Part shown: piece after piece, positions 41,767-58,692 of the stretch
Numbering within the stretch: the stretch's first letter is position 1
How the letters are laid out: each line of letters begins with the position of its first letter
NCBI RefSeq assembly: GCF_030680935.1
Contig: NZ_JAUXUP010000026.1
Coordinates: 62,001-126,000 of the forward strand
Direction: 5' to 3'
DNA: 64,000 nucleotides
Source: Polaromonas sp.
GTDB lineage: Bacteria > Pseudomonadota > Gammaproteobacteria > Burkholderiales > Burkholderiaceae_C
Program-made: the position numbers and the translations under genes
Notes under the pieces: generated by a model
Databases searched by the model: none
What the model saw: only the letters and a program-made list of their open reading frames with translations
What the model was told of the DNA's origin: nothing

Positions 41767-41779
41767 CGCTGGGGCGGGG

Positions 41780-42968: not shown

Positions 42969-43014
42969 GAAACGTCCATAAGCTCACCCCTGTTTATCAA
43001 CCAGGAGTGACCTT

Positions 43015-43497
43015 ATGTTTCGTCGTCGTGTTTTGCTTGTCGCGGCTGCTGCCGCCATCGTGTCCGGTTGCGCCACCATGTCTTCACCCGTGTCGGTCGC
43101 AGACACCATTGCTGCCAACCCATCCCTGAGCACGCTCAACGGCCTGATCGTGAAAGCCGGCCTGACCCCCACCCTGAAAGGCGCAGGCCCTTTCACCGTG
43201 TTTGCCCCGACCAACGACGCCTTCAAGGCCGTGCCGGCCAAAACCATGGACGATCTGGCCAAAAATCCGGCAATGCTCAAGGATGTCCTGACCTACCACG
43301 TCATCTCCGCCAAGGTCATGAGCGCTGATGTGAAAAACGGCCCCGTCAAAACAGTCAACGGCGCAAATGTCGCCGTTGCCAAAGCCGGTGATTTCGTCAC
43401 CGTTGAAGATTCCATGGTTCAGACAGCCAACATCGTGGCGACCAATGGCGTGGTGCACACCGTAGACCGCGTGATGATCCCACCCAAAAAGAACTGA
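43015..43497 (+). CDS. Fasciclin-domain lipoprotein
   Basis: 160 residues. Lipoprotein signal MFRRRVLLVAAAAAIVSGC with lipobox IVSGC; the rest is one FAS1 domain: LSTLNGLIVKAGLTPTLKGA, the hallmark FTVFAPTNDAFKAVP, LTYHVISAKVMS, and the closing TNGVVHTVDRVMIP. FAS1 proteins mediate adhesion or bind small ligands. AGGAG lies 8 nt before the ATG. Divergent from pstS with a possible Pho box in the shared spacer, which hints at phosphate control. Confidence 0.93.
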   Translation: MFRRRVLLVAAAAAIVSGCATMSSPVSVADTIAANPSLSTLNGLIVKAGLTPTLKGAGPFTVFAPTNDAFKAVPAKTMDDLAKNPAMLKDVLTYHVISAKVMSADVKNGPVKTVNGANVAVAKAGDFVTVEDSMVQTANIVATNGVVHTVDRVMIPPKKN

Positions 43498-43507
43498 GGA
43501 TGAGCGT

Positions 43508-43529
43508 CCGGCCCCATTCGCCGGTTTTT
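43508..43529 (+). terminator. Probable terminator after the fasciclin gene
   Basis: Short stem CCGGC/GCCGG (7-nt loop) followed by TTTTT, 10 bp after the stop codon. The stem is short, so strength is uncertain. Confidence 0.5.
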
Positions 43530-43549
43530 ACGCGCCTACCTCGGATTTT

Positions 43550-43582
43550 CAGCTGATGCCCCAGTTCAGCGGGCATCAGCTG
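43550..43582 (+). other. Perfect 12-bp hairpin without T-run
   Basis: CAGCTGATGCCC and GGGCATCAGCTG pair exactly around a 9-nt loop (CAGTTCAGC). It lies between the fasciclin terminator and the binding-protein gene. No run of T follows on either side. It could be an RNA-stability element or a Rho-type end signal. Confidence 0.5.
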
Positions 43583-43648
43583 CTATTCATTCAGTAGCAT
43601 TTTCAACAAGACGGTGAGGCCCTCCGGGCCGCGCCATGGGGGAAGACC

Positions 43649-44797
43649 GTGTACAAACAGCCAAAAAACAAAAAACGTCGCCAATTCCTGCAAGGGGCCG
43701 CCCTGCTTGCCGCCGGTGCAACCGCCCCCCTGTGGGCCCAGCCCGGAAAAACGGTCGGCAACTCGCGCGGCATCACCGTGGCCCAGGTGGTCGATTTTTC
43801 GTTGGCGCAGCAAGACGTGTCCAAGGATTTCCTGATTGGCTCACGCGCCGCCTGGCAGGACATCAATGCCAAAGGGGGCCTGCGCGGCAAGCCGGTCCAG
43901 CATCTGACACTGGAAACCGACGGCACCCCAGCCAGCATCCGCGCCGCCCTGGACAAGATCAAGGACGACCCTTCCTGCGTCGTTCTGTCCGGGAGCGTGG
44001 GGGACCAGGTGGCAGGGCATGTCATTTCCCAGTTGCAGCAAAGCAGAACAGAAATTGCGCACACGGCCCCCTGGCTGCAGAACTCCAGCCTGGACATTGA
44101 CCAGCAGACCTTCCCGATTTTTGCGGCACGCCAGCAACAGATCAGCCATGCGCTCAAAACCCTCTCGGTGATGGGCCTGAAGGAGTTGGGAGCGGTGTAC
44201 GCCTCGGACGCGGACCAGGCGATCTACCGCAGCGACGTCGAGCGCATCGCCAGTGGCATGGGGCTCAAGCTGCTTTCTTTTCGCAGCGGCGGCGATCTGG
44301 CGGTACTGGGCCAGAAGCTCACGCCAGCCACCCCGGCGGTGCTGCTGTTCCTGGGCGGGACGCCCGAGCTTGCACAGTTCACACAGGGCCTGGACAAGCA
44401 GGCAAGGCAACGTTACGTGGTTGCGCTGGCCGATGTCAACCTCCAGACCATGGTGCAGATGGGCGGCACGCGAAGCACGCCCATCATCGCCACGCAGCCT
44501 GTTCCCCTGATCAAATCCAGCATTCCCGTCGTGCGAGCCTACCGCGAGACCCTGGCCCGCCTTTTTGACGAACCGCCGGTACCCCTCAGTCTGGCCGGCT
44601 TTATCGCGGCCCGCTATACCTATGAAGTTCTGCGCGATATCGAAGGCCCGCTGACCAGGCAACACACCCTGGGTGAATTCCAGCGCCGGGCCAGTGTCGA
44701 TGTGGGCGGCTTCCGCGTCGCTTTCGACGCCCAGCGGCGCAGCGCGACCTACGTCACCCAAAGCATGACCACTGCCGACGGACGGGTGATCGGATAG
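43649..44797 (+). CDS. ABC transporter substrate-binding protein (LivJ-like, type 1 fold)
   Basis: 382 residues starting at GTG 43649 with GGGGAAGA upstream; no nearby in-frame ATG. Tat signal KKRRQFLQGAALLAAGA ending WAQ. The body is a periplasmic binding protein type 1 (branched-chain amino acid or amide-type): SLAQQDVSKDFLIGSRAAWQ, INAKGGLRGKPVQHLTLE, VVLSGSVGDQVAGHVISQ. No permease or ATPase gene is nearby, so it is an orphan; it may serve another importer or act as a sensor. Ligand unknown. Confidence 0.82.
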   Translation: MYKQPKNKKRRQFLQGAALLAAGATAPLWAQPGKTVGNSRGITVAQVVDFSLAQQDVSKDFLIGSRAAWQDINAKGGLRGKPVQHLTLETDGTPASIRAALDKIKDDPSCVVLSGSVGDQVAGHVISQLQQSRTEIAHTAPWLQNSSLDIDQQTFPIFAARQQQISHALKTLSVMGLKELGAVYASDADQAIYRSDVERIASGMGLKLLSFRSGGDLAVLGQKLTPATPAVLLFLGGTPELAQFTQGLDKQARQRYVVALADVNLQTMVQMGGTRSTPIIATQPVPLIKSSIPVVRAYRETLARLFDEPPVPLSLAGFIAARYTYEVLRDIEGPLTRQHTLGEFQRRASVDVGGFRVAFDAQRRSATYVTQSMTTADGRVIG

Positions 44798-44863
44798 AGC
44801 TGCAAAAAGCGCGGGCGGGCCCCGTGCGGATGCTATGCTGGGATTCCAACAAAACGCTCATAC

Positions 44864-46354
44864 ATGCAAAACGGAACCCGCCTGGCCGCTGTTGATCTGG
44901 GATCCAACAGCTTTCGCCTCGAAATTGGCCGCCTTGAACACGGCCAGATCAACCGCACTGAATACCTCAAGGAAACCGTCCGCCAGGGCAATGGCCTGGA
45001 CGCCGACCGCAACCTCACGCCTGAGGCCATGCAGCGTGGCTGGGACTGCCTGGCGCGTTTCGGCGAGCGGCTGGCCGGCTTCAAAAAAAGCCAGGTGCGC
45101 GCTGTGGCCACGCAGACGCTGCGCGAGGCACGAAACCGCGATGTCTTTCTGGAGCGGGCGCACCGCGTGCTGGGCTTCCCGATTGATGTCATTCCTGGCC
45201 GCGAAGAAGCGCGGCTGATCTACCAGGGCGTGGCCCACATGCTGCCGCAGTCGGACGACCGCCGCCTGGTGGTCGATATCGGTGGCCGCTCTACCGAATT
45301 GATTCTCGGCAAAGGCCTGACGGCCCAAACCATGGAGTCTTACCGCGTAGGCAGTGTGGCCTGGTCCATGAAGTATTTTGCAGAAGGCCTGTTCACGACA
45401 CGCGCCTTTCAGAGCGCCGAGGTGGCCGCCAAGGCGGTTCTTGAGGAAGCCATCAACACCTACCGCGCAGGCTGGGACATTGCCTACGGCTCATCGGGCA
45501 CCATTGGGGCCGTCAGCGATGTGCTGGTGGCCGCCGGCTGGCCGCAGGGCCTGGTCTCACAGGACGGGCTGGACTGGCTGCTGGACCGGCTGCTCAAGGC
45601 CCAAAGCTCCGACCGCCTGCGACTTGACGGCATGAAGGACGACAGGCGTGCCGTCATAGGTGGCGGCGTCAGTGTGCTGCGCGCCGTGTTTGAGCTGCTC
45701 GGCATTGACCAGATGCATGCAGCCCAGGGTGCGCTGCGCCACGGCGTGTTGTACGACCTGCTGGATCGGGAGCAGGAGGTGACCGACCTGCGCTCTGTCA
45801 CCGTGCAGCGGCTGGTGCGCAAGTTTGAGGCGGACCAGGCCCAGGCCGTACGGGTCAGCAAGGTCGCCAGAACACTTTTTCTGCAAGTTGGTACCGGTTT
45901 GCCCGAGCCGGACCTTGATCGCCTCCAGCGCAAACTAGACTGGGCCGCGCAACTGCACGAAATTGGCAGCCATATCTCGCACAGCGAGTATCACAAACAC
46001 GGCGCCTACATTCTGGACAATGCCGACGCGCCCGGTTTTGCCCTGCCCGAGCTGCACCGGCTGAGCCTGCTGGTGCTGGGGCACCGCGGCAAGCTGCGCA
46101 AACTCGAAGCCGATTTCGAAGACATACTTTTTGTACAGCAGTTGCTCTGCCTGCGCCTGGCCGTCATCCTGTGCCATGCGCGCCGCGACCCCGACATCCG
46201 GGACATGCGCATCGAAGCGGCGGGTGACCATGTGTTTGCACTGGCCTGCCGCGACGGCTGGTCGGACAGCTTTCCGCAATCGGCCCACCTGCTGCGCGAA
46301 GAAGTGCTGGCCTGGCAAAAAACCCCCTGGACGCTGGCCCTGACCGGGCTGTAG
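44864..46354 (+). CDS. ppx: Exopolyphosphatase
   Basis: 496 residues. ASKHA-fold enzyme that removes terminal phosphate from polyphosphate (or pppGpp). Motifs: AAVDLGSNSFRLEIGRLEHG (phosphate 1), RAVATQTLREARN, VVDIGGRSTELILGKG (phosphate 2), AYGSSGTIGAVSDV. The C-terminal HD-like region includes AAQLHEIGSHISHSEYHKHG. Faces the sixA-ppk1 genes, an arrangement matching polyphosphate turnover. Confidence 0.95.
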   Translation: MQNGTRLAAVDLGSNSFRLEIGRLEHGQINRTEYLKETVRQGNGLDADRNLTPEAMQRGWDCLARFGERLAGFKKSQVRAVATQTLREARNRDVFLERAHRVLGFPIDVIPGREEARLIYQGVAHMLPQSDDRRLVVDIGGRSTELILGKGLTAQTMESYRVGSVAWSMKYFAEGLFTTRAFQSAEVAAKAVLEEAINTYRAGWDIAYGSSGTIGAVSDVLVAAGWPQGLVSQDGLDWLLDRLLKAQSSDRLRLDGMKDDRRAVIGGGVSVLRAVFELLGIDQMHAAQGALRHGVLYDLLDREQEVTDLRSVTVQRLVRKFEADQAQAVRVSKVARTLFLQVGTGLPEPDLDRLQRKLDWAAQLHEIGSHISHSEYHKHGAYILDNADAPGFALPELHRLSLLVLGHRGKLRKLEADFEDILFVQQLLCLRLAVILCHARRDPDIRDMRIEAAGDHVFALACRDGWSDSFPQSAHLLREEVLAWQKTPWTLALTGL

Positions 46355-46382
46355 AATTTTCTGCGGCGCGGAGCCAGCGGGC

Positions 46383-46853
46383 TCAGAGCACTTCTGGCGA
46401 CTGCACCGTCACCACCACGGTCTGCGGTGCACCCTCACGCTCGCGCGTGCGTAACCACCACACCGCGCCTTTTTTCACCGCGCAATCGTTCTCCTGCAAG
46501 CCCAGCAGATGGGCAATGGTCTGCCCCAGAACGGGCTGGTGGCCAATCACCAGAATCGGCAGCTTGTTGACCGGCCATTGAACCAGCTCCAGCAGCTGCC
46601 CGGGCAGCGCATCGGGGCCCAGCTCGGCCCGGACCTTGTATTTGCGGCCCAGCGCCAGGGCGGTCTGCTCGCAGCGCCTGGCCGGGCTGACCAGAATGCG
46701 CGCGCGCTCCGGCAACTGACGGTCCAGCCAGACCGCCATGCGGGCCGCCTGCTTTTCGCCGCGTGGTGTCAGCGAGCGATCCAGGTCGCTGCCGCCCTCG
46801 GCATCCCCGGGTAGCTCTTCAGCCTCTGCGTGGCGCCAAAGAATCAGGTCCAC
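46383..46853 (-). CDS. sixA: Histidine phosphatase family protein, SixA-like
   Basis: 156 residues starting at GTG 46853, 5 bp after the ppk1 stop. Motif LILWRHAEAEELP has the catalytic RHA (His8); ILVSPARRCEQTALAL and ILVIGHQPVLGQTIAHLLG supply the other active-site residues. SixA dephosphorylates phosphohistidine on phosphotransfer proteins. Genes of this type commonly follow ppk in betaproteobacteria, so a role in polyphosphate or histidine-phosphate metabolism is likely. Confidence 0.88.
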   Translation of the reverse strand: MDLILWRHAEAEELPGDAEGGSDLDRSLTPRGEKQAARMAVWLDRQLPERARILVSPARRCEQTALALGRKYKVRAELGPDALPGQLLELVQWPVNKLPILVIGHQPVLGQTIAHLLGLQENDCAVKKGAVWWLRTREREGAPQTVVVTVQSPEVL

Positions 46854-46858
46854 CGGGT

Positions 46859-49012
46859 TTACCTGTGCGGCTTGCCGCCGGTGGCCGAATAACGCGCCAT
46901 CAGTGCGGCTTGTGCGCCGTGCCGTCTGCCTTTTTCGGGTGCCCCCACATGCTTGTAACTGCCGTCAGGCTGCAGGTCCCAGGCGTCCTGGCTGTCGTGC
47001 AGGTAAGCGACCAGGCATTCATCGATGATGCGCTGACGGATCATCGGGTCTGTGACCGACCAGGCCAGCTCCACCCGCCTGAGCATGTTGCGGTTCATCC
47101 AGTCGGCACTCGACAGGTACAGCGTCTCCACACCCGCGCAACGGAAGTAGAACACCCGCGAATGCTCCAGAAACCGCCCGACCACCGAACGCACCCGGAT
47201 GTTGTCCGTCACGCCTGGCACGCCGGCCGGCAGCATGCAGGCACCGCGCACCACCAGATCAATCTTCACGCCGCACCGCCCTGCCCTGACCAGCGCGTGC
47301 ATCAAGGCTTCGTCGGTCAGCGCGTTCATCTTGGCCACGATACGTGTGTCCTTGCCCAGTTTGGCAGCTTCGCCCAGTGCATCCATTTTTTCAATCAACT
47401 TGCGGTGCAGCTGAAACGGCGCCACCAGCAGCCGGTTCAGCCGGGGCAACTTGCTCTGGCTGGCCATGTGCACAAAAACATTGTCAATATCTGCTGTGAG
47501 GTCCGCATCTGCGGTGAGGTAACTCACATCGGTGTACAGCCGGGCGGTGTTGGGGTTGTAGTTGCCGGTGGACAAATGGGCATAACGTTTGAGATGTTTG
47601 CCCTCGCGTCGCGTCACCAGCAGCATCTTGGCGTGCGTCTTCAGGCCTACCACCCCATACACCACCTGCGCACCAATTGATTCCAGCATCTCGGCCCAGT
47701 TGATGTTGGCTTCTTCATCAAAGCGGGCTTTCAATTCCAGCACCACCGTGACTTCCTTGCCACGGCGCACCGCCTCGCGCAAAAGCACCATCAGTTCGGA
47801 GTCCGGCCCGGTGCGGTAAATGGTCTGCCGGATGGCCAGCACCTGCGGGTCGTTGACCGCTTCGCGCAGAAAATCAAGCACACCGCCAAAACTCTCAAAA
47901 GGCTGGTGGATGGACACATCCCCGTGTTTGAGCCGTTCAAAAAAAGACTGACCCGGTACCAGTTGCACCGGGTAACAGGCCTTGTAGGGCGGAAAAAGAA
48001 GTTTCGGGTCGTTCACCAGATCCACCAGCTGCGTCAGGCGTACCAGGTTCACCGGGCCATGCACGCGGTACAGCGACTGCGCCGGCAGATTGAACTGCCG
48101 CAGCAAAAAGGCAGAGAGGTATTCCGAGCAGCCGGATGAAACCTCCAGCCGCACCGCCTGACCATAGTGGCGCTGCTCCAGGCCCAGGCGCAGGGCGGTA
48201 CGCAGGTTTCTCACATCGTCTTCGTCCACCGCCAGGTCCGAGTGCCGGGTGACCCGGAACTGCGAGAACTCGCCTACCTCCCGCCCCGGAAACAGGTCGG
48301 TGAGGTGCGCGCGTATCACGCTGGACAGCGACACAAACAGCGATTTTTTATGCGAGCCCTTGTCGGGCATGTGAATCAGCCGCGGCAGCACCCTGGGCAC
48401 CTTGACAATCGCAATGTCGTTTTCGCGGCCAAAAGCATCGCGGCCGCCAAGACGCACAATGAAGTTCAGCGACTTGTTGGCCACCTGCGGAAAAGGGTGA
48501 GACGGGTCCAAGCCCACCGGGATCAGCAGCGGTCTGACCTCGGTATCAAAGTAATTTTTGACCCAGCGGCGCTGCGCAGCATTGCGGTCACCGTGCGACA
48601 CAACGCGTATGCCATGGCGTGCAAATTCGGGCATCAAGGCGTCGTTGTACAGCGCGTACTGCCGCTCCACCATGTCGTGCACAGAAGCCGACAAGGTCTG
48701 AAATGACTGTTCCGAGTAGCCGGCCTTGGCCTCCTGCTGCACGGCTGCCGTCAGGTGCAGCGCTGCGCGCACTTCAAAAAACTCGTCCAGGTTGGAAGAA
48801 ACAATACACAGAAAGCGCAGGCGCTCCAGCAGCGGGACCTCAGGGCGTTTGGCCCAGTCCAGCACCCGCTCATTGAAGGCCAGAATGCTCTGGTCCCTGT
48901 CCAGAAACCGCACGGCAGGTGAAGTTGGCGGGGTAGTCACAACAGGCGTGGAAGGTGTTTGGCGCATACAAATTTCAGGCGAGGCGTTGGCCTCTTGTTC
49001 TTTTGTCATCAT
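46859..49012 (-). CDS. ppk1: Polyphosphate kinase 1
   Basis: 717 residues. Makes polyphosphate from ATP. N-terminal domain FLDRDQSILAFNERVLDWAK; HPFPQVANKSLNFIV; the phosphohistidine region in VVGLKTHAKMLLVTRREGKH; LSTGNYNPNTARLYTDVSYL; C-terminal SSADWMNRNMLRRVELAWSV. ATG 49012, with a second ATG next to it. A strong Pho box 28 bp upstream suggests induction on phosphate limitation. Confidence 0.96.
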   Translation of the reverse strand: MMTKEQEANASPEICMRQTPSTPVVTTPPTSPAVRFLDRDQSILAFNERVLDWAKRPEVPLLERLRFLCIVSSNLDEFFEVRAALHLTAAVQQEAKAGYSEQSFQTLSASVHDMVERQYALYNDALMPEFARHGIRVVSHGDRNAAQRRWVKNYFDTEVRPLLIPVGLDPSHPFPQVANKSLNFIVRLGGRDAFGRENDIAIVKVPRVLPRLIHMPDKGSHKKSLFVSLSSVIRAHLTDLFPGREVGEFSQFRVTRHSDLAVDEDDVRNLRTALRLGLEQRHYGQAVRLEVSSGCSEYLSAFLLRQFNLPAQSLYRVHGPVNLVRLTQLVDLVNDPKLLFPPYKACYPVQLVPGQSFFERLKHGDVSIHQPFESFGGVLDFLREAVNDPQVLAIRQTIYRTGPDSELMVLLREAVRRGKEVTVVLELKARFDEEANINWAEMLESIGAQVVYGVVGLKTHAKMLLVTRREGKHLKRYAHLSTGNYNPNTARLYTDVSYLTADADLTADIDNVFVHMASQSKLPRLNRLLVAPFQLHRKLIEKMDALGEAAKLGKDTRIVAKMNALTDEALMHALVRAGRCGVKIDLVVRGACMLPAGVPGVTDNIRVRSVVGRFLEHSRVFYFRCAGVETLYLSSADWMNRNMLRRVELAWSVTDPMIRQRIIDECLVAYLHDSQDAWDLQPDGSYKHVGAPEKGRRHGAQAALMARYSATGGKPHR

Positions 49013-49039
49013 TCTGACTCATCAGTGTGGTCGCAATTG

Positions 49040-49057
49040 GTGACAGTTGTGTGACAG
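49040..49057 (-). promoter_or_regulatory. Pho box upstream of ppk1
   Basis: Read on the minus strand: CTGTCAC ACAA CTGTCAC, two identical 7-mers with a 4-bp spacer, the best single match to the PhoB consensus in the window. No strong -10 is obvious at the expected distance (CACACT is the nearest). Confidence 0.8.
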
Positions 49058-49084
49058 CCTTGTTGCAAATCAATGACAAGTCGA

Positions 49085-50152
49085 TCAGGTCAGCGCCTGC
49101 ACCGCAGTGGTCTTGACTTCAGCCTGCGCATGGGCCGGCACAAGATGCCGCTCAAACAGCTGCGCGGCATGCTCCCAGCTGAAGTCCAGCGCACGGGCAC
49201 GCGCCGCGTGACGCGGCACCTGCATGGCCTGGTAGCTGGCCTGCTTCAGGTCCTGGTCCATCACACCCCCATGACAACTGCCGTCAGGTTTTCCCAGCAC
49301 CTCCAGAGGGCCGTCCACCGGATAAGCCGCCACCGGTGTGCCGCAGGCCATGGCCTCCAGCATCACCAGACCAAAGGTTTCTGACCGACTGGGAAACACG
49401 AATACATCGGCCGCCGCGTACACCCGGGCCAGCTCGTCGCGCGGCAACACGCCCAGCCAGCGCACCTGCGGATACCGCTCTTTGAGCGACGCTTCCAGTG
49501 GGCCTACACCACACACCACCTTGGTCCCCGGAATGTCCAGTGCCAAAAAGGTATCGATGTTTTTTTCATAGGACACGCGCCCCACAAACAGCGAGACCGG
49601 CCGCACCAACGTACCCATGGGAGGGTAGAGCCGCGCCTCGGGATAAAAAGCAAACAGCTCAGTGTCCACACCATGCGTCCAGCTGCGCAGATTGCGAAAG
49701 CCACGCTTTTCCAGCATGTTCAACACGCCGTTGGTGGGCACCATCACACCTGATGACGGCTTGTGAAAATGGCGAAACAGCGCATACCCCCAGGACAGCG
49801 GTATTTTCAGCGCAGCGTTGAGGATTTCCGGAAATTTGGTGTGAAACGCGGTCGTGAACTGCAAGCCCCGCTTCAGACAATACCCGCGCGCCGCCCAGCC
49901 CAGCGGACCTTCGGTGGCAATATGAATCGCGTCCGGCTGCAAGGCATCCATCTTCGCGCTAAGCAAAGCCTTGGGGCGAATCGCCAGGTCAATGCCCGCG
50001 TACCCCGGGCAAGGCCGCGTTTTGAACAGGCCCGGGTGAATGACCTCGACCCGGTGGCCAAGGTCTTCCAGCTCGCGCACCAGCTCTACCAGGGTGGTGA
50101 CAACGCCGTTGACCTGTGGCTGCCAGGCATCGGTAATCAAAGCGATCTTCAT
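49085..50152 (-). CDS. GT4 glycosyltransferase, Agt/MgtA-like (lipid glycosylation)
   Basis: 355 residues. GT-B fold: [20 protein letters not shown] and the donor-binding E-x7-E motif within [20 protein letters not shown]. Its ATG overlaps the phosphoesterase gene by 4 nt. In Agrobacterium and other bacteria, Agt-type enzymes of this family glycosylate diacylglycerol during phosphate starvation, using diacylglycerol released by PlcP. The same neighbourhood here supports that role (inference). Alternative: another mannosyl- or glucosyltransferase of envelope lipids. Confidence 0.82.
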
Positions 50153-51012
50153 GCGGCCACCGTGCTGCTGACATGGCCGAGACCACGGGTTTCGTGCGCA
50201 GGCGCCCAGTGCAGCAGCTCCAGCCTGCCGTCGAAGTGCTCTACCAGCGCGGTGCGGCTTTCCACCCAGTCACCGTCGTTGCAATACAGCACACCGTTGA
50301 TGTCGCGCATCTCTGCGCGGTGAATGTGGCCGCAGACCACACCCTGATGGCCCTTGCGCCGCGCCTCGTTGGCCACGGCCACCTCAAAATCGGTCACATA
50401 GTTCAACGCGCTTTTGACCTTTTGCTTGAGGTAAGCCGACAGCGACCAGTACGGCAGGCCCATGCGGGCACGCAGGCTGTTCAGGTAGCGATTGAGTTTG
50501 AGTGTGAATTCATAGAGGTTGTCGCCCACAATGGCGAGCCACCTGGCGCATTGCACCACTGCATCGAAATAGTCTCCGTGGATCACCCACAGATTGCGGC
50601 CGTCGGCGGTGGTGTGCACCGCCTCTTCCATGACCTCGATGCCGCCGAACTGGTGGCCAATAAATTCACGCGCAAACTCATCATGGTTGCCGGGCACATA
50701 CACCACGCGGCAACCCTTGCGCGCTCGACGCAGCAGCTTTTGCACCACATCGTTGTGGGTTTGCGGCCAGTACCATTTGCGCCGCAACTGCCAGCCATCC
50801 ACAATGTCGCCGACCAGGTACAGGTAGTCGCTGGGGTGCGCCTTCAAAAAGTCCAGCAGCGCAGTGGCCTGGCAGCCGGGCGTGCCCAGGTGCAGATCCG
50901 AGATAAAGATGGTGCGGTAACGCTTGCGCAGCGCATCCTCGTCATGGTCGTCATCAGGCTCTGGCGCACCGCCGTTGTTGAGCGGGCCCAGCTTGTCGAA
51001 CATCGTGCGCAT
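50149..51012 (-). CDS. PlcP-like metallophosphoesterase (phospholipase C type)
   Basis: 287 residues. Calcineurin-like motifs: [61 protein letters not shown] and [10 protein letters not shown]. Often annotated as UDP-2,3-diacylglucosamine hydrolase-like, but it is longer than LpxH and has the features I remember for PlcP, the phospholipase C used by Sinorhizobium and marine bacteria to degrade phospholipids when phosphate is scarce. The start overlaps the olsB stop by 1 nt and its stop overlaps the glycosyltransferase start. Functional call is inference from family and context. Confidence 0.78.
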
Positions 51013-51866
51013 CAGGCCGCCCCGGCAGAAAAGTGTTTGCGATAACGCGGCGGCAAATCGGCAATACGCATCATCATCGGCAGATCGGCAGAGTTGAAAT
51101 CAGGGTCCCAGGCTGGCGCGCCCAGCACCTTGGCACCCAGGCGCAGGTAGCCCCGGATCAGCGCTGGTGGCTCTACATCGAGCGAGTCGTCCATGCGCTC
51201 CACCGGCAGCGGCAGGCGCGGCGTCACATGAAACTCAATCGGTGCCAGATGTGTTTGCCGCACCTGGCGCCAGATGCTGGCGGCCGCCTGCCCGCTGGAG
51301 GCCCCGGTGTGCTGCATGGGGATGCTGGCGCAGCCAATCATGGTGTCCAGCTGGTTGCGCGCCATGAACTCGGCCAGCGCGCCCCAGAGCGCCAGAATCA
51401 CGCCGCCGTGCCGGTGCTCGGCATGCACGCAGCTGCGGCCGAGTTCAACCATACGTTCGCGCAAAAAACGCAGCCGCGTCAGGTCAAACTCGGTGTCGCT
51501 GTAGGTGCTGCCGGCGCGTTTGGCCTGGGTGGGCGTGAGCACGCGGTAAGTGCCTATGACCTCCTGGCTGGCTTGGTCGCGCACCAGCAGGTGTTCGCAG
51601 AAATCATCAAACAGGTCGATGTCGTGGCCCGGCACTGTGTTGGGCAGGGTGGCGCCCATCTCGAGCGCGAAGACCTGGTACCTCAGACGCTGCGCCTGCC
51701 GGACTTCATCCTGGTGCCTGGCCCAGCTGACCTGGATTTTGCCCATGGCAGGCCTTTGAACAGCGGCTGGAACGGTTGCATGAGAGCTTTGATGAAGTAA
51801 CCCCCGTGAAAAGTGCCCGGGGGCGACTGGCGACAAAGCAAACGTGGGATTCGGCAGTTCTTTCAT
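51012..51866 (-). CDS. olsB: L-ornithine N-acyltransferase (ornithine lipid synthesis)
   Basis: 284 residues from ATG 51866, preceded by AAGGAG at 5-nt spacing. OlsB-type GNAT fold: QRLRYQVFALEMGATLPNT, DFCEHLLVRDQASQEVIGTY, ELGRSCVHAEHRHGGVILAL, MIGCASIPMQHTG. The enzyme N-acylates ornithine with a 3-hydroxy fatty acid to lyso-ornithine lipid. An OlsA-type acyltransferase is not in the window. Ornithine lipids replace phospholipids on phosphate starvation, consistent with the phoX and plcP neighbours. Confidence 0.88.
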   Translation of the reverse strand: MKELPNPTFALSPVAPGHFSRGLLHQSSHATVPAAVQRPAMGKIQVSWARHQDEVRQAQRLRYQVFALEMGATLPNTVPGHDIDLFDDFCEHLLVRDQASQEVIGTYRVLTPTQAKRAGSTYSDTEFDLTRLRFLRERMVELGRSCVHAEHRHGGVILALWGALAEFMARNQLDTMIGCASIPMQHTGASSGQAAASIWRQVRQTHLAPIEFHVTPRLPLPVERMDDSLDVEPPALIRGYLRLGAKVLGAPAWDPDFNSADLPMMMRIADLPPRYRKHFSAGAA

Positions 51867-51909
51867 GATGACTCCTTGTTGTCTTTGAATAATCAAGTGC
51901 AAACGCTGT

Positions 51910-51934
51910 AAAAAAGCCCCGTTGCAGGGGCTTT
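51910..51934 (-). terminator. Intrinsic terminator after phoX
   Basis: On the minus strand: AAAGCCCC, loop TGCAAC, GGGGCTTT and a T-run. Located between phoX and olsB, it would end phoX transcription or limit read-through into olsB-plcP-agt. The short region after it shows no clear Pho box. Confidence 0.85.
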
Positions 51935-51945
51935 GTGATGACTGA

Positions 51946-53904
51946 CTAGGTGCCGACAATGCCGCCGTCTTTGCGACGGATGACCACGGTGGCCGAACGC
52001 GGTCGGCCACCGGTGGGCCCGTCCGGCCAGTGACTGACCGCCTTGGGCTGGGCCGGGTCACCGCGCTCACTGGCGGTTTCTCCCGGGTGCTGGATATTGA
52101 TAAACACTGCGCGGCGGTCCGGCGTAAAGGTCACGCCGGTGATCTCGCAACCGGCCGGGCCGGTCAGAAAGCGCTTGGTCTCGCCAGTGGCCGGATCGGC
52201 GCACAACATCATGTTGTTGCCTATGTTCTTGTAGCCACCTTTGTGCATGGCCGAGGTGGAAATGTCGGTCTGTATCCACAACATGCCGCCAGCGTCAAAC
52301 TGCAGGCCATCGGGGCTGCCATACATGTCGCCCTTGATCGTGCCCCGGTACTCGGCTTTTTCAGCATTCGGGTCACCGGCCAATGCAAAGTGCATCCAGC
52401 GGAACTCGGTGGCGCTGGCGTCGCCGTCCAGCCGGCTGGCGCTGCCGCCCGGGCTGCCCTTGCCTTCACGCCAGCGAATGATGTGGCCCATGATGTTGTC
52501 GTTGCGCGGGTTGGCCGCATTGGCCATACGCGCCGGCTGGCTGCCCTGCCCCCGGTTGCTGTTGTTGGTCAGCGTCACAAACACCTCACCGGTGTTGGGG
52601 TGCACAGCCACCCACTCCGGCCGGTCCATCTTGGTGGCACCGGCCACATCAGCGGCCTGGCGGCACTTGACCACCACGTCGGCCTGGCTGGCAAAGCCGT
52701 TGGCGGCGGTCAGCTTGTCTTGCCCCTGCACCAGCGGCAACCAGCGGCCATAACCCTGCTCGTCAAAACGGGCCACGTACAGCGTGCCATGGTCCAGCAG
52801 CTCTTTGTTGGCGCGGTATCCGCCGGGCTTGACCTTGTCGCGGCTGACAAATTTGTAGATGTACTCAAAACGCTCGTCGTCACCCATGTACACCACAGCG
52901 CGGCCATCGCGCGACAGCGTGGTGGTGGCGCCTTCGTGTTTGAAGCGGCCCAGCGCCGTGCGCTTGATCGGGGTTTGTGTCGGGTCTTGTGGGTCGATCT
53001 CGACCACCCAGCCAAAACGGTTGGCCTCGTTGGGGTGTTTCACCGCATTGAAACGCTCATCAAACTCATGCCAGCGGTAACCAAAACCCTTGGCTGTCAT
53101 GCCATAACGCGCCTCGTCCGGGCCAGGCTTGTCGCCCGTGGCAAAGTAGCCGTTCCAGTTTTCTTCACAGGTCAAAAACGTGCCCCAGGGGGTTTGACCG
53201 GCTGCGCAATTGTTCAGAGTGCCCAAAGGACGCATGCCTTCAGGGTCGGCTGCCGTTTTCAGCAAGGCATGGCCGGCGGCCGGGCCGCTGAACTGCATGG
53301 GTGTGCTGGCAGTGATGCGGCGCGCATAACGCGAGTTGGGCATGACGCGCCAGACACCGGCACGCTCTACCACCTCAATCACGCTGACGCCGTGGGCCGC
53401 TTGGGACTTGCGCACTTTTTCAGCCGTCCAGGTCAACATGCCATCGCTGTGCAGCAGACCGTCGTCGGTGTACTCGTGGTTGATGGCCAGCAGGCCATGG
53501 CGCGGATTTTTGTCCAGCGGAAAATACTCCATGCCGTCGTGGTGCATGCCCGACTGCAGCAATTGCTCTTGCCAGCTGTTCGATGCATCGGCATTAAAAG
53601 CCGTCGCCGCAGAACCGGCAATACCGGTCGCATCACCCCAGCGGTACAGCACCTGGGCATCGTATTCAGGCGGCACCACCAGCGCGTCGGCACTGGACAC
53701 CGGCACACCGGTGAAGCCCAGCGCCTTGCCCTTGGCTGCCGTGGCGGCATTAGCAGTCAGGGTGTGCGAGCCCATCAGCAAAGCCACAGCCGCTGTGGTG
53801 CAACGCAACACATGGCGCCGCTCGCCGTCTATTTCGTGGATAGAGGGGTTGGGCGTGTTGTTGACGCCGTACTGCTCAGAATCCCCTGCAAAACCTTGAC
53901 CCAT
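51946..53904 (-). CDS. phoX: PhoX-type alkaline phosphatase
   Basis: 652 residues. Secreted phosphomonoesterase that uses Ca and Fe. The N-terminus contains a twin-arginine motif ERRHVLRCTTAAVALLMGSH, so export is by Tat. Family blocks: NHEYTDDGLLH, LNNCAAGQTPWGTFLTCEEN (with the iron-ligand Cys), ERFEYIYKFVSRD, RPEWVAVHPNTGEVFVTLTN and SPDGLQFDAGGMLWIQTD. A triple Pho box lies 65 bp upstream. Confidence 0.95.
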   Translation of the reverse strand: MGQGFAGDSEQYGVNNTPNPSIHEIDGERRHVLRCTTAAVALLMGSHTLTANAATAAKGKALGFTGVPVSSADALVVPPEYDAQVLYRWGDATGIAGSAATAFNADASNSWQEQLLQSGMHHDGMEYFPLDKNPRHGLLAINHEYTDDGLLHSDGMLTWTAEKVRKSQAAHGVSVIEVVERAGVWRVMPNSRYARRITASTPMQFSGPAAGHALLKTAADPEGMRPLGTLNNCAAGQTPWGTFLTCEENWNGYFATGDKPGPDEARYGMTAKGFGYRWHEFDERFNAVKHPNEANRFGWVVEIDPQDPTQTPIKRTALGRFKHEGATTTLSRDGRAVVYMGDDERFEYIYKFVSRDKVKPGGYRANKELLDHGTLYVARFDEQGYGRWLPLVQGQDKLTAANGFASQADVVVKCRQAADVAGATKMDRPEWVAVHPNTGEVFVTLTNNSNRGQGSQPARMANAANPRNDNIMGHIIRWREGKGSPGGSASRLDGDASATEFRWMHFALAGDPNAEKAEYRGTIKGDMYGSPDGLQFDAGGMLWIQTDISTSAMHKGGYKNIGNNMMLCADPATGETKRFLTGPAGCEITGVTFTPDRRAVFINIQHPGETASERGDPAQPKAVSHWPDGPTGGRPRSATVVIRRKDGGIVGT

Positions 53905-53968
53905 GAATCACTCTCCATCGCGTTTTTTGACTGATGCGAGGATTCTGGAAGGCAGCGGTTACGTGATC

Positions 53969-53997
53969 ATGTCAGTTTGATGGCAGTTTGATGACAG
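53969..53997 (-). promoter_or_regulatory. Triple Pho box upstream of phoX
   Basis: On the minus strand three 7-mers, CTGTCAT, CTGCCAT and CTGACAT, are each separated by CAAA, giving an exact 11-bp period over 29 bp. This would bind at least one PhoB dimer and probably an array. No obvious -10 follows at 10-11 bp. Confidence 0.85.
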
Positions 53998-54015
53998 GGG
54001 GTTGGGGTGGTGGCT

Positions 54016-54072
54016 TGCTATTGAATAAATAGCTGCTTGCGCAGGTGGGAAAAGGGCTGGGGGCCTAAATTG
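54016..54072. repeat. Dispersed family B repeat
   Basis: The plus strand reads TGCTATTGAATAAATAGCTG, CTTGCGCAGG, then AAAAGGGCTGGGGGCCTAAA. One of the best copies. The rest of this 382-bp spacer (53905-54286) holds the phoX Pho boxes and otherwise no gene I can support. Confidence 0.7.
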
Positions 54073-54286
54073 GTATGTATTGTTGTGTGGCCACAAAGTC
54101 CCGCTTTCGATAGCCAGCGCCCGTCGTCCCCGTGACTTGTTCAGATACCAGACCGTGGGCCGGTCGGCTCGGGTTGACCGAATTCGATTGAATCCTTTGG
54201 AGGAGGCAAATCACAATCGGCTACAGCCGGTAATGCAGCAGCCCAACCAGCGGTGAGCTCGTCGGCCAGCACATTCGGAGTCAGAA

Positions 54287-55249
54287 TCAGGTCTGATGGG
54301 TAAGCTCAAGCCGCTGCGCCACCAGACGCACCAGGGCGCGTGCGTTGGCACCCGCGGTATGTACGGGCAAGGTCAGGGCCTGAACGCAGTCGCCCTCCGC
54401 AATGGGCAAATGCCAGTCCGGCAGCAGGTTGTGCAAGCGCCCGGCCGCGACGTCCTCTTGCACGCAAAAGTCGGGTGCCAACACGACCCCTTGGCCGAGC
54501 CGCGCCAACGTTACCAGGGCTTCGAGGCTGTCGGCGCTGATGTGCGGCTGCAGCTCCACGGTTTCGCTCATCTTGCCGCTGCGGCGGTGCCATTGCAGCG
54601 GCCAAATTTGCGCGCCGCCTTCGAGCATGAGCAAAGGCCATTGCTGCAACGCCGCCGGACCCGCCAAGGGCATTGGTGTGGTGCCGTATGCACCAATCAA
54701 AAAGCGCAGCACCGGCTGGGCCACGCAGTCCTCCGGCGGCTTGCGGGTGATGCGAAAGGCCACATCCACACCCTCGCGCACCAGGTCGACCCGCCGCTCG
54801 GTGAACATCAACTCCATGGCCACGCCAGGATGCGTGCGGCCAAACTCGGCCAGTAAAGGCAACAACACGCTGTAGCCGAAGGCGCGCATGCTTGTGATGC
54901 GCAACCGCCCCTGCAGGGCATCGCCCTCCTTGCGCAACGCCATGCGTGCCGCGTTAGCGGCTTCGTGCACGACCTGGGCCCTCGATGCCAGCGCGCGCCC
55001 GGCCTCGGTCAACCCCAGCGAGCGAGTGGTGCGTGCCAGCAGTGTCTGGCCGACTATCTGCTCCATGGCGGCCACGCGGCGGCTGACGGCAGCACGGGTC
55101 AGCCCCAGCTGGCGCGCTGCCCGTGAAAAGCTGCCGGCCGCGACCACGTGGGCAAATAGCTCCAGTGCGTTGGCATCCAAGGCCGAGGCCTCGCGATGGC
55201 GGTGTAGTCGGGTTGCTGACAAGGCAACTGCGTCTTTTGGTGAGCTCAT
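54287..55249 (-). CDS. LysR family transcriptional regulator
   Basis: 320 residues from ATG 55249 (a TTG six codons upstream is possible). The winged HTH is LELFAHVVAAGSFSRAARQL followed by GLTRAAVSRRVAAMEQ, and the effector domain follows (GRLRITSMRAFGYSVLLPLL). It is divergent from the hydrolase gene, 89 bp apart, so it probably controls it. Effector unknown. Confidence 0.92.
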   Translation of the reverse strand: MSSPKDAVALSATRLHRHREASALDANALELFAHVVAAGSFSRAARQLGLTRAAVSRRVAAMEQIVGQTLLARTTRSLGLTEAGRALASRAQVVHEAANAARMALRKEGDALQGRLRITSMRAFGYSVLLPLLAEFGRTHPGVAMELMFTERRVDLVREGVDVAFRITRKPPEDCVAQPVLRFLIGAYGTTPMPLAGPAALQQWPLLMLEGGAQIWPLQWHRRSGKMSETVELQPHISADSLEALVTLARLGQGVVLAPDFCVQEDVAAGRLHNLLPDWHLPIAEGDCVQALTLPVHTAGANARALVRLVAQRLELTHQT

Positions 55250-55338
55250 GTAAACAGTGTGACTCAAAAATAGAGTCTATTCAACAGATTAGTACAAATC
55301 TACCATGCAGCTTCATGAACCAACTGTTTGGAGTTGCT

Positions 55339-56385
55339 ATGTCCTTTGCCTTGTCCGCCGCCGCCCCTGCCACGTATGCAAGGGCTACCTTGGAATCCCC
55401 CGACCAGGCACACCTGCACGCCCATCTGCCGTTCCAGGATGAACCAGACCCGCAGGACGCGCAGGTAGACATGGACGCGGTGCAATTTGCCGCCACGGAT
55501 GGTCACCCTCTGCACGGGCACTGGTTTGTGCCGCAGCACCAAGGTGCCCATGCGGTGGCGGTCATGGCGCCCGCCACCGGTGTTCCGCAGCGCTACTATC
55601 ACGCCTTTGCCCGCTGGCTTGCCGCTCGTGGCTATGCCGTGTTGTGCTTTGACTACCGCGGAATGGGTAAGCGCAACGGTGCCAATGCCAGTGCCAGTGG
55701 GCGCACCGGCATGCGCGAGTGGGTGCGCCACGACCTCTCGGGTGCGCTGGCCTGTGCGAAGGCGCGTAGCACCCAAAGCGACCAGCACTTGCCCCTGCTG
55801 TGGGTCGGGCACTCGTTAGGAGGCAATGGATTGCCGCTGGTACAGGGGCTTGAGCACATCAACGCGGTCATTACCCTCGGTTCCCAATTCGGGTACTGGA
55901 AACTGTGGCCACGTGGATGGCACCGCCAGGTTACCCGTGTGTTTTTTGGGCGCTGGGTCCCGCTGTTGGTGCGTCTGACCGGCAAGCTGCCCGGCTGGGC
56001 GTTGGGTGGTGGCGAGACGCTGCCCGGGGCTGCCGCCATGGACTGGGCTCGATGGGGCATGTCGCCCGGATACTTTCGCGATGACCCGGCCTGCGAGGGC
56101 TGGTATCAGCCCGACCAATTTCAGGGGCACATGCAACTGTGGAGCATTGACGACGACAAAACATTTGGTCCAGTCGATGCGGTGGATGCACTAGCGGCGT
56201 GCTTTGGCCAGAGCGCAGGCCAAGTCGAGCGTTTGCACCTGCACCCACGCGCGGTAGGACGCAAAGCGGTCGGGCATTTTGGCGTGTTCCAGCGCGTGGC
56301 GGAAGCAAAAATTTGGCCCCTGGTGTTAAACCACATCGAGGCCAAGGTACCACTTTTGCGCCCTGGGGTAGGCGTTTATTCCTAG
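55339..56385 (+). CDS. Alpha/beta hydrolase family protein
   Basis: 348 residues from ATG 55339, chosen for GGAG at 5-nt spacing; ATG 55315 lacks one. The nucleophile elbow is WVGHSLGGNGLPLVQGL, the oxyanion side is VMAPATGVPQRYYHAFARW, and YAVLCFDYRGMGKRNG is a typical strand-loop. A likely acid and His are in the C-terminal part (LWSIDDDKTFGP; AVGHFGVFQ). Substrate unknown; regulated probably by the divergent LysR. Confidence 0.85.
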   Translation: MSFALSAAAPATYARATLESPDQAHLHAHLPFQDEPDPQDAQVDMDAVQFAATDGHPLHGHWFVPQHQGAHAVAVMAPATGVPQRYYHAFARWLAARGYAVLCFDYRGMGKRNGANASASGRTGMREWVRHDLSGALACAKARSTQSDQHLPLLWVGHSLGGNGLPLVQGLEHINAVITLGSQFGYWKLWPRGWHRQVTRVFFGRWVPLLVRLTGKLPGWALGGGETLPGAAAMDWARWGMSPGYFRDDPACEGWYQPDQFQGHMQLWSIDDDKTFGPVDAVDALAACFGQSAGQVERLHLHPRAVGRKAVGHFGVFQRVAEAKIWPLVLNHIEAKVPLLRPGVGVYS

Positions 56386-56734: not shown

Positions 56735-57415
56735 TCACAGGGCGCTGCTGACTCGATTGGACTTTGGCTTCCAACTCGCCGCACCCAGCAATACGATCCT
56801 GAGTTGCTGCACGAAAGTCTCGGTCATCTCGGCCTCCAGCAGGGGTTGATCGGCCTGTAGATCGAGCATCTCCGGCGCGGCGGCCAACATGGTGGTGACG
56901 ACCAGTCCGCAAATCATTTGCAGATCGCCCGTGGACAGACCTGAGTAGTCGCCCATGCGGCGAAAATCCTGCACCATCTCGCTCGTGAAGTGGCTGACTT
57001 CGTTACGGATGGCCGCCCGCAGCGTCCGGCTGCCGCCCGACCGCTCGCTCGAGATGAAGAGAAACAGCCGGCGATTCTGCTTCACGTACGCCTGGTAGGC
57101 CTGCACTGAGCGCCTGAGCAAGTCCACGTCCTGCTCTCCCTCCACTTGGCGGGCCTCGCGCAGCAGGCGCCGCAACGTCAGCCCCACCTCGGCGACCAGA
57201 GCCAGGCCCAATTCGTCAGTGTTATTGAAGTGGCGATAAAACGAATTGGGGACCACTCCGGCCTCCCGCGCGATCTCGCGGATGCCCAGGCTGGTGAAGC
57301 TGCGGCCTTCGCCGATCAGTTTCAACGCCGCGCGCACGAGGCTGCCTCGCGTCAAGTCCTTGCGCTCGGTGCGAGACAGGTTCTCCCTGCTCATCGGGTT
57401 TGGTGTGCCTGCCAT
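56735..57415 (-). CDS. FabR-like TetR family repressor of unsaturated fatty acid synthesis
   Basis: 226 residues. The TetR HTH is GSLVRAALKLIGEGRSFTSL followed by GIREIAREAGVVPNSFYRHF, and then NNTDELGLALVAEVGLTLRR, very like E. coli FabR. FabR/DesT proteins bind acyl-CoA and repress desaturase genes. An operator copy sits 7 bp upstream of its ATG, so it probably represses itself. Divergent from the reductase-desaturase genes. Confidence 0.88.
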   Translation of the reverse strand: MAGTPNPMSRENLSRTERKDLTRGSLVRAALKLIGEGRSFTSLGIREIAREAGVVPNSFYRHFNNTDELGLALVAEVGLTLRRLLREARQVEGEQDVDLLRRSVQAYQAYVKQNRRLFLFISSERSGGSRTLRAAIRNEVSHFTSEMVQDFRRMGDYSGLSTGDLQMICGLVVTTMLAAAPEMLDLQADQPLLEAEMTETFVQQLRIVLLGAASWKPKSNRVSSAL

Positions 57416-57421
57416 GTTTGT

Positions 57422-57437
57422 GTGGACAAATGTACCT
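57422..57437. promoter_or_regulatory. Candidate operator before the FabR-like gene
   Basis: GTGGACAAATGTACCT is an imperfect copy of the palindrome at 57519-57534 (12 of 16 positions agree). It lies 7 bp from the regulator's ATG, a position suited to autorepression. Confidence 0.5.
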
Positions 57438-57518
57438 CATTTCTTGTTGTAGATCAGCTGATTTCTACTGGTGAAGTTGGTCAATCACTCTAATATTTCT
57501 CGCCACTATCGACAATTG

Positions 57519-57534
57519 GTGTACAACTGTACAC
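57519..57534. promoter_or_regulatory. Palindromic operator before the reductase gene
   Basis: GTGTACA AC TGTACAC is a perfect 7+2+7 inverted repeat 10 bp before the ATG of the reductase gene. It resembles FabR/DesT-type operators (TACA...TGTA cores). Binding of the FabR-like protein here would block the reductase-desaturase operon. Confidence 0.75.
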
Positions 57535-57543
57535 AATAGCGGC

Positions 57544-58671
57544 ATGATGCAAAAGAAACCTGCTCCAGAACCCGGTTTGGCCCGCAAGGCGCTGAATGCA
57601 GTGACCCGGTTGACCGACAGCTTTTCATACCCCCTGAGCCTTTCGCACTATGTCGAGCTGGTCAATCCTCTCTGGGCCACCCACGCGATGCAGGCGCGGG
57701 TCGAGAAGGTTTGGGACGAAACGAAGAACGCACGCACCCTCACGCTGAAGCCGGGTCTGAACTGGCGGGGTTTTCGGGCCGGCCAGCATGTTCGCGTCGG
57801 AATTCCGGTCGATGGGAAGCACTTCACCCGCACGTACACGATCTCATCGCCGCCGGAGCGAGAGGATGGCCGCTTCACAATCACCGTCAAGGCGATCGAG
57901 GGCGGCACCATTTCCCACCACCTGGTGCGCAGCATCCGGGTGGGCGACTACCTGCCCATCGGTTTGCCGCAAGGCGACTTCCACCTGCCGGATGCGCAAC
58001 CCGTGTCGCCGCTGTTTATCACGGCGGGCAGCGGCGCGACGCCCGCAATGAGCATGGTGCGCAGCATGATCGCGCAAGAGCGTCTGGTGGACACCGTGCA
58101 CATTCACTACGCGCCCCACGAGTTCGACGTGATCTTCGGCAAGGACTTCCATCAGTTGGCGCAGGAGCACACGCGTTATGTCTACCACCCGGTCTATACC
58201 CACCCGTTTGGCAAATCCATCCCATCCGAGGGACATTTCAGCGCCGGGCAGTTGGATCGACTCTGCCCGGACTGGCGGGACCGCGAGGTCTACGCGTGCG
58301 GCCCACAGTCGTTGCTGGTGGCGCTGGAACTTCATTTCGGGAACGCCGGCAGGGCTCGGCATCTGCACATCGAGCGCTTCCGAGCCGCGTTCGCCGAAAT
58401 TCCCGCGCAAGCCACCGGCGGCCGCGTGTGGTTCGCCAAGGCCGGCGTGCAGGCGGATGCCGATGCAACTACCAACTTGCTGCGGGTGGCCGAGCAAGCG
58501 GGCATGAACCCGCCCCATGGTTGCCGCATGGGAATTTGCCACGCCTGCGATACGCGGCTTGTCTCCGGCTGCGTCCGCGATCTGCGAACCGGCAAAGTCC
58601 ACAGCGAAGCAGGCAGCGTGATCCAGCCCTGTGTCTGCGCGACCGCGGGCGACTGCGAACTCGACCTTTGA
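57544..58671 (+). CDS. Ferredoxin reductase with C-terminal 2Fe-2S domain (desaturase electron donor)
   Basis: 375 residues. FAD-binding motif HFTRTYTISSPPEREDG, NAD-binding ITAGSGATPAMSMVRSMIA, then a plant-type ferredoxin domain with CRMGICHACDTRLVSGC and a fourth Cys in IQPCVC. This matches the DesC-type partner of fatty acid desaturases. It is 21 bp upstream of the desaturase gene and behind a FabR-type operator, so it should pass electrons from NAD(P)H to the desaturase. Confidence 0.92.
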   Translation: MMQKKPAPEPGLARKALNAVTRLTDSFSYPLSLSHYVELVNPLWATHAMQARVEKVWDETKNARTLTLKPGLNWRGFRAGQHVRVGIPVDGKHFTRTYTISSPPEREDGRFTITVKAIEGGTISHHLVRSIRVGDYLPIGLPQGDFHLPDAQPVSPLFITAGSGATPAMSMVRSMIAQERLVDTVHIHYAPHEFDVIFGKDFHQLAQEHTRYVYHPVYTHPFGKSIPSEGHFSAGQLDRLCPDWRDREVYACGPQSLLVALELHFGNAGRARHLHIERFRAAFAEIPAQATGGRVWFAKAGVQADADATTNLLRVAEQAGMNPPHGCRMGICHACDTRLVSGCVRDLRTGKVHSEAGSVIQPCVCATAGDCELDL

Positions 58672-58692
58672 CCGAAACCCCTGAGAGCCCCC

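Follow-up and report, generated by a model that had tools for sequence, protein, structure and literature searches.

The stretch of DNA analysed here, referred to as the window, comprises 64,000 nucleotides of a Polaromonas sp. genome (assembly GCF_030680935.1, contig NZ_JAUXUP010000026.1, positions 62,001 to 126,000 of the forward strand). Our subject is a group of four minus-strand genes, phoX, an olsB-like gene, plcP and an agt-like gene, which an earlier note on this DNA, made from the sequence alone, had proposed to be a phosphate-starvation lipid-replacement locus. The proposal is borne out in outline and refined by the present analysis. The locus consists of the following features:

51946-53904, minus strand: phoX, alkaline phosphatase PhoX (PF05787, 565 bits)
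51012-51866, minus strand: olsB-like ornithine N-acyltransferase gene (PF13444)
50149-51012, minus strand: plcP, metallophosphoesterase, intracellular phospholipase C-type by homology
49085-50152, minus strand: agt-like GT4 gene (PF13439 and PF00534)
53958-53997, minus strand: Pho promoter array before phoX, four 11-bp registers
51913-51934, minus strand: terminator-like hairpin in the phoX-olsB gap (AAAGCCCC-loop-GGGGCTTT followed by a T run)

The domain matches, to PF05787, PF13444, metallophosphoesterase and GT4 models, agree with the families to which the earlier note had assigned the four products, and the overlapping gene ends it described are TGATG (olsB stop and plcP start) and ATGA (plcP stop and agt start). 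The gap between phoX and olsB measures 79 bp. The N-terminus of PhoX is twin-arginine-like and carries ERRHVLRCTTAAVALLMG, which we take to be a Tat signal.

The predicted lipid enzymes and a candidate partner

The phosphoesterase is 58% identical over 238 residues to a Pseudomonas aeruginosa homologue whose gene is followed by a glycosyltransferase gene. All 114 PlcP matches, a set in which some genomes stand in more than one locus, carry the metal motifs DxH, GDxxD, GNHD and HGD without variation, and GHxH is likewise constant in the 107 matches that cover that part of the protein. By homology, PlcP is thus predicted to be a phospholipase C-type enzyme acting on membrane phospholipids. A distant similarity to LpxH raises the alternative that the protein has an LpxH-type role in making lipid A, and 11 of the 15 listed plasmid-borne PlcP homologues are indeed annotated as UDP-2,3-diacylglucosamine diphosphatase, that is, as LpxH-type. 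However, the window protein misses the cut-offs of both LpxH models (TIGR01854, 41.9 of 190.35 bits; NF003743, 48.5 of 134 bits), and a separate LpxH is encoded on another contig of the same genome, with 189 bits (just under the cut-off of 190) and 227 bits (over 134) for the respective models. Furthermore, PlcP has GNHD where this LpxH has GNRD, and both the agt neighbour and the similarity to the P. aeruginosa protein argue in the same direction. On the sub-cut-off scores, the separate LpxH and the GNHD motif, the identification of the phosphoesterase as LpxH was rejected; an enzyme of LpxH-type activity only, which the earlier note had considered, is unlikely in a genome that apparently has its own, and we regard a role in lipid A synthesis as very improbable. 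The annotation of the plasmid-borne homologues is likely a mislabel.

Between the glycosyltransferase and the P. aeruginosa homologue encoded beside plcP, identity is 49% across 336 aligned positions. His104 is present, together with near-versions of two sugar-binding motifs of the Pelagibacter enzyme (GRVAxEKN and FPSxTDTFG), and the acid residue is Glu258; these residues were assigned from the published motifs and numbering of that enzyme. Among 79 Agt matches of at least 45% identity, the acid residue is Glu in 61 and Asp in 15, and is not covered in three. In the available text on the Pelagibacter enzyme, the catalytic acid is Asp256, and its replacement by Glu cost more than 90% of activity (PMC8231724). 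The GT4 family is large, and weak matches to many functions occur within it, so that the protein could serve the synthesis of a surface polysaccharide or of some other glycoside and stand beside plcP by coincidence. The linkage to plcP, the similarity to the P. aeruginosa homologue in the same position, His104 and the two near-motifs all speak against such a role, which we consider improbable. Rather, the protein is presumably an Agt-type diacylglycerol glycosyltransferase, with a sugar as the presumed transferred group. A weaker relative of Agt (34-42% identity) is encoded no more than 12 kb from olsB in 15 Burkholderiales genomes, of 49 such places typed, and may be a second lipid glycosyltransferase.

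The OlsB-like protein matches PF13444 with 122 bits, and its two best NCBIfam models are both OlsB (158 of 350 and 146 of 320 bits), the next best scoring 43. OlsB yields the lyso form only and does not by itself complete ornithine lipid. The ornithine-lipid route proposed in the earlier note therefore needs a partner for OlsB, and the candidate for it is encoded on another contig. Five acyltransferase matches in the genome exceed the Pfam cut-off; for the one on contig C48, the best models are two OlsA models (130 of 300 bits, and 119 bits). The gene beside it is dihydroorotase-like, judging from its sequence. In a sample of 120 Burkholderiales genomes, at least 90% complete, olsB occurs in 83, plcP in 59 and a relative of the C48 protein in 111. 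This relative and olsB share a strand and are no more than 500 bp apart in 48 of the 83 genomes with olsB, which supports the OlsA reading of the C48 protein and means that, outside the near relatives of the window, olsB is often placed with olsA. The C48 protein is accordingly our candidate for an OlsA encoded elsewhere in the genome.

The Pho array, the hairpin and the slot before olsB

The promoter array upstream of phoX comprises the registers CTGTCAT, CTGCCAT, CTGACAT and ACGTAAC, the fourth being degenerate, followed by TTCCAGAATC, a possible -10 region. It includes an 11-bp tandem repeat of 2.6 copies (53969-53997) and two overlapping matches to CTGTCATN4CTGTCAT, and the Pho score upstream of phoX lies between the 99th and 99.9th percentiles of 4000 random 250-bp pieces. 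The 'triple Pho box' of the earlier note is thus real, although it has four registers. Across the whole window, a loose Pho pattern allowing three mismatches occurs nine times against 4.0 expected, a weak enrichment (at least nine in 4 of 100 shuffles). The Pho context that the note had described is also confirmed, with genes for phosphate uptake and polyphosphate metabolism adjoining the locus, but the note mentions neither the boxes before ppk1 and pstS nor the hairpin between phoX and olsB. These neighbouring features are:

49040-49057, minus strand: Pho box before ppk1, within a four-register array at 49040-49079
46859-49012, minus strand: ppk1, polyphosphate kinase 1 (TIGR03705, 874 bits, cut-off 466)
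46383-46853, minus strand: sixA-like phosphohistidine phosphatase gene (TIGR00249, 62 bits, under the cut-off of 74.5)
44864-46354, plus strand: ppx, exopolyphosphatase (TIGR03706, 311.5 bits, cut-off 307)
42874-42891, minus strand: Pho box before pstS (motif match and score)
36209-42829, minus strand: pstS-pstC-pstA-pstB-phoU-phoB-phoR (PstS, PstB, PhoU, PhoB and PhoR each over an NCBIfam cut-off)

Here, pstC and pstA are assigned from position and sequence only. In relatives, the sixA-like gene frequently follows ppk1. An Rfam search of positions 36000-56000 of the window gave zero matches. On the other side of the locus, at 56735-59871, a FabR repressor (157 bits, cut-off 151) is grouped with an oxidoreductase and, named from its sequence only, a putative fatty acid desaturase; these genes form a membrane unsaturation cluster near those proposed for lipid replacement.

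When the upstream regions of genes in the collected loci were scored for a two-unit Pho pattern, a threshold of at least 11, which 3.6% of 6000 random pieces reach, was attained by pstS in 27 of 27 cases, ppk1 in 49 of 60, phoX in 9 of 10 and olsB in 32 of 73, and less often by ppx (11/44), plcP (10/96), agt (5/73) and sixA (1/56). Four-register arrays, defined by at least 14 of 16 core positions, show a different distribution: they occur in the olsB promoters of 40 of 56 loci, in all seven phoX promoters that precede olsB, including that of the window, and in 23 of 24 rows of promoters of a small open reading frame (ORF) that precedes olsB in relatives (two genomes are counted twice among these rows, L009/L117 and L023/L119), compared to 7 of 61 for ppk1, 4 of 26 for pstS and 1.3% of 3000 random pieces. 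These scores across relatives place the array at 53958-53997 in the olsB type, with phoX standing between array and olsB. The contrast between olsB, with four registers, and pstS and ppk1, with two units, holds statistically but not absolutely. We had to abandon two-unit boxes as a clean contrast for pstS and ppk1 because, although most promoters fit, the ppk1 promoter of the window (49040-49079) breaks the pattern, with a four-register score above that of the phoX array and the higher of the two in the window.

At this locus, the Pho box stands before phoX, and none lies directly before olsB, where the best score in 250 bp is 9.0 against a random mean of 8.9. In addition, the 79-bp gap folds as a GC hairpin followed by a T run (z = -2.1; 4 of 200 shuffles were equally stable). 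A terminator scan of the region found five sites against 5.6 expected, that is, no excess over chance, and the weight of the hairpin accordingly comes from its recurrence: by eye, a similar hairpin lies upstream of olsB in 13 of 15 Polaromonas- or Curvibacter-type sequences, with and without phoX (the exceptions being L024 and L055). With this hairpin in the way and no Pho box immediately upstream of olsB, the Pho array could drive olsB-plcP-agt only by read-through, on which Pho control of these genes here would depend. The same observations suit an arrangement in which olsB-plcP-agt is a unit of its own, outside the control of the phoX Pho box, with the hairpin ending the phoX transcript and an unrecognised promoter in the gap maintaining a low constant expression. 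However, a crude scan for sigma-70-like promoters found none in 48800-54400, where 1.7 would be expected by chance, terminator-like sites are at chance level, and the phoX promoter is built like the olsB promoters of relatives, many of which have no phoX and carry the array directly before olsB. The separate unit thus appears unlikely, if still a serious alternative, and we favour Pho control by read-through. The notion that Polaromonas olsB has no Pho site was dropped, Pho boxes lying 313-449 bp upstream in five of the eight phoX-less relatives checked.

In relatives without phoX, the place of phoX between the Pho array and the hairpin is taken by a conserved small ORF, mostly of 60-96 residues (one of 131; for example, L113:1501-1695, L031:6748-7023 and L009:11789-12058, among others), which is lacking in the window. 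It has zero Pfam or NCBIfam matches. Of 41 related genomes, 18 contain it (three of the matches being weak), and every one of these belongs to the 24 other members of the genus, whereas the genome of the window lacks it; in a wider search, it occurs in at least 4 of 200 genomes (up to 27 candidates per genome were scored), two of these being weak and having no olsB in their loci. In all 12 loci fetched, including genomes with no or a weak plcP match, the small ORF lies within 200 bp upstream of olsB, and in 9 of the 12 a pattern search located such a hairpin after it; in L024, about 780 bp separate the small ORF and olsB. Chance is ruled out as the origin of this ORF by the differences at the three codon positions (1316/891/2830 in 171 pairs from 19 sequences), which indicate that it is coding.

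The N-terminal half of the small ORF is similar to the signal region of PhoX. Its core aligns with the N-terminus of PhoX, with a mean score of 39 for 20 sequences (after removal of four duplicate rows) against a shuffle maximum of 28, so that 0 of 400 shuffles reach 39. Against the PhoX of the window the score is 43, compared to 15-22 against 15 other proteins of the window, and a profile comparison with PhoX gives E = 1.5e-5 at a probability of 79%. The predicted fold is of low confidence (mean pLDDT 62.8, one helix). PhoX itself was found in 2 of the 16 genus members searched (E up to 1e-100), the genome of the window and G004, in both at this slot. Among named strains, Polaromonas sp. AET17H-212 carries phoX in the slot and Polaromonas sp. 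JS666 the small ORF. One reading is that, in most members of the genus, all but a leader-like stub of phoX was lost, with the promoter, the hairpin and the lipid genes retained. More tentatively, the four-register promoter may have a module slot before olsB that is occupied either by phoX or by a selected PhoX-derived leader, acting as a small protein or as a translated leader that gates read-through and thus tuning lipid replacement to phosphate; we regard this as a possibility with appreciable odds against it.

Gene order in relatives

Gene order was compared in the 80 named loci most similar to the PlcP of the window out of at least 592 pattern hits, the nearest named relatives being Polaromonas. 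The olsB gene directly precedes plcP in 68 of these loci, agt directly follows plcP in 54 of the 76 with enough downstream sequence, and the run olsB-plcP-agt-ppk1, with ppk1 within 2.2 kb, is found in 40. In contrast, phoX directly precedes olsB in only five of the 80, as it also does in G017, G004 and the window. For a check within the family, as delimited by the genome set used, we took 200 genomes that are at least 90% complete, 148 of them with plcP, and examined the 29 best-scoring relatives (with 1.5-kb flanks) and 40 more distant genomes with plcP (every third of the lower ranks); this set and the 80 loci overlap (for example, L062/L167). Among the 29, olsB stands beside plcP in all, together with agt in 25, ppk1 is within 2.2 kb in 24 and phoX is near in five. 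Among the 40 farther members, the respective numbers are 10, 4, 18 and 0.

The low counts in the farther members, 10 with olsB and 4 with both genes, show the olsB-plcP-agt fusion to be a feature of the nearer relatives within the family. A family-wide fusion, which we had initially drawn from the 80 loci, was refuted by these 40 genomes, and a generally conserved four-gene unit including phoX was rejected on the phoX counts (5 of 80 and 5 of 29), and kept for close relatives of the window. The recurring unit is olsB-plcP, often extended by agt and ppk1, with phoX as a minority neighbour.

Across the 120 Burkholderiales genomes, plcP and olsB occur together in 49, above expectation (Fisher p = 0.0015, with ancestry ignored). 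Of these 49, two have olsB no more than 500 bp from plcP and 12 no more than 10 kb from it, in varied gene orders, and 32 of the 59 plcP genomes have agt at most 500 bp from plcP; all places of plcP, olsB and olsA were typed, with those of agt in 44 of 77 agt genomes, the omitted agt places including none within 500 bp of plcP, as judged by eye. In other families of the order, plcP and olsB are close to each other in other orders in G130, G055, G099, G031 and G093. Such varied orders suggest that genes for the glycolipid and ornithine-lipid routes came together on more than one occasion. On a 263-kb plasmid of Mitsuaria sp. 7 (L133), the order is plcP-ppk1-ppx, with neither agt nor olsB annotated in the stretch fetched.

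In 17 of the 80 loci, olsB-plcP is kept with room downstream and agt does not adjoin it; agt is missing between plcP and ppk1, with olsB and plcP kept, in L054, L058, L061, L074, L079, L089, L090, L099 and L102. In 10 of 11 genomes without an adjoining agt that were searched, the best agt-like match is 35-42% identical, and in L098 a 47% match lies elsewhere, compared to 67-85% in five genomes with agt, two of which also hold a relative of 37-38%. In Limnohabitans sp. 15K (L099), a 23-residue agt-like remnant (E = 0.001) persists in the gap. PlcP retains its motifs throughout. These observations, along with the co-induction of PlcP, DagK, OlsA and OlsB reported in the available text for Pseudomonas putida (PMC5082522), would be expected if PlcP mainly partnered OlsB, with ornithine lipid filling the gap left by phospholipids, a kinase recycling the diacylglycerol and Agt being optional. 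Against such a partnership stand the presence of agt in the window and in most loci with room for it, and the order-wide placement, in which agt is the close neighbour of plcP far more often than olsB is (32 against 2 of 59 genomes). We therefore think this partnership has a minor share of the probability, and retain PlcP-Agt as the favoured pairing here.

A probable Pho-linked lipid-replacement locus and known systems

Homology and context together make it probable that the locus serves Pho-linked replacement of membrane lipids. Under this model, PhoB would bind at low phosphate to the four-register array upstream of phoX, and exported PhoX would free phosphate from external phosphoesters. 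Transcripts passing the hairpin would carry olsB-plcP-agt, for which the overlapping gene ends suggest coupled translation. PlcP would split phospholipids into diacylglycerol and a phosphate-bearing head group, and Agt would add a sugar to the diacylglycerol, forming a phosphorus-free glycolipid. OlsB would begin the synthesis of ornithine lipid, to be completed by an OlsA encoded elsewhere, and ppk1 would come next, under its own Pho box. The view of the earlier note, of one compact locus uniting the glycolipid and ornithine-lipid routes, is supported.

Several observations weigh against this model. The terminator-like hairpin stands in the way of Pho control, and no Pho box immediately precedes olsB. 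The putative catalytic acid of Agt is Glu instead of the Asp of Pelagibacter, and among the matches of the glycosyltransferase there is no NCBIfam model named for Agt. The OlsB-like protein scores under both OlsB cut-offs, and is filed as OlsB-like only, and the OlsA candidate is likewise below the NCBIfam cut-offs. Finally, the gene order is not family-wide, and 17 loci keep olsB-plcP with no adjoining agt. The model is weakest in having Pho control extend to the lipid genes at this locus and in relying on the distant olsA candidate to complete ornithine lipid.

If the model is correct, Polaromonas and related genera wire both phosphorus-free lipid routes in one Pho-linked unit adjoining polyphosphate metabolism, and lipid remodelling in these bacteria becomes directly testable and predictable from sequence. 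The comparison also brings out olsB standing apart from the olsA-like gene that it adjoins in other families, the absence of agt from some lineages that retain plcP and olsB, and the labelling of PlcP-type genes as LpxH-type in public records.

The plasmid-borne plcP-agt pair of P. aeruginosa, with which the protein comparisons above were made, overlaps by 4 bp, like the pair in the window. In its 3.9-kb stretch, unlike in the window, olsB and ppk1 are not present, and a regulator gene lies upstream and a cyclase gene downstream. We take this pair to be PA3219-PA3218, partly from its neighbouring genes. The PlcP-Agt1 system of P. aeruginosa (PA3219-PA3218), as described in the excerpts of PMC8528852, has plcP followed by agt and a Pho box, as in the window. 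Together with the wide presence of plcP in Burkholderiales, the testing of this system in P. aeruginosa overturns the restriction of PlcP and Agt to alphaproteobacteria in the earlier note.

According to the accessible parts of the respective articles, marine bacteria, Pseudomonas and Methylosinus are established cases of lipid remodelling by PlcP and Agt (PMC4796936, PMC8528852, PMC9239053). In both Methylosinus trichosporium and the marine type 2 neighbourhoods, plcP lies directly upstream of agt, like in the window (PMC9239053, PMC4796936). M. trichosporium also makes ornithine lipid at low phosphate, but its olsA and olsB have their own separate locus tags, unlike the olsB-plcP unit of the window (PMC9239053), and the excerpted description of six plcP arrangement types in marine bacteria does not name olsB (PMC4796936). 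The olsBA genes of Burkholderia are alike in the OlsB family and in the predicted Pho boxes before olsB (PMC7814305, in excerpt), and whereas olsB adjoins an olsA-like gene in many other Burkholderiales, that of the window adjoins plcP instead. In P. putida, again from the available text, PlcP and OlsA/OlsB are under Pho control, as proposed for the window, and phosphate stress raises PlcP, DagK, OlsA and OlsB jointly, but plcP, olsAB and phoX have distant locus numbers, unlike the cluster described here (PMC5082522). The occurrence of both phosphorus-free lipid routes in one organism is therefore already known. Among the matches listed from the open-licence PMC literature, in the portions available, we found no description of olsB-plcP-agt as a single overlapping unit, of the four-register promoter or of the closeness of ppk1. 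Thus, although their merger into one Pho-linked block is apparently undescribed in this literature, the individual parts of the locus are each of a known kind.

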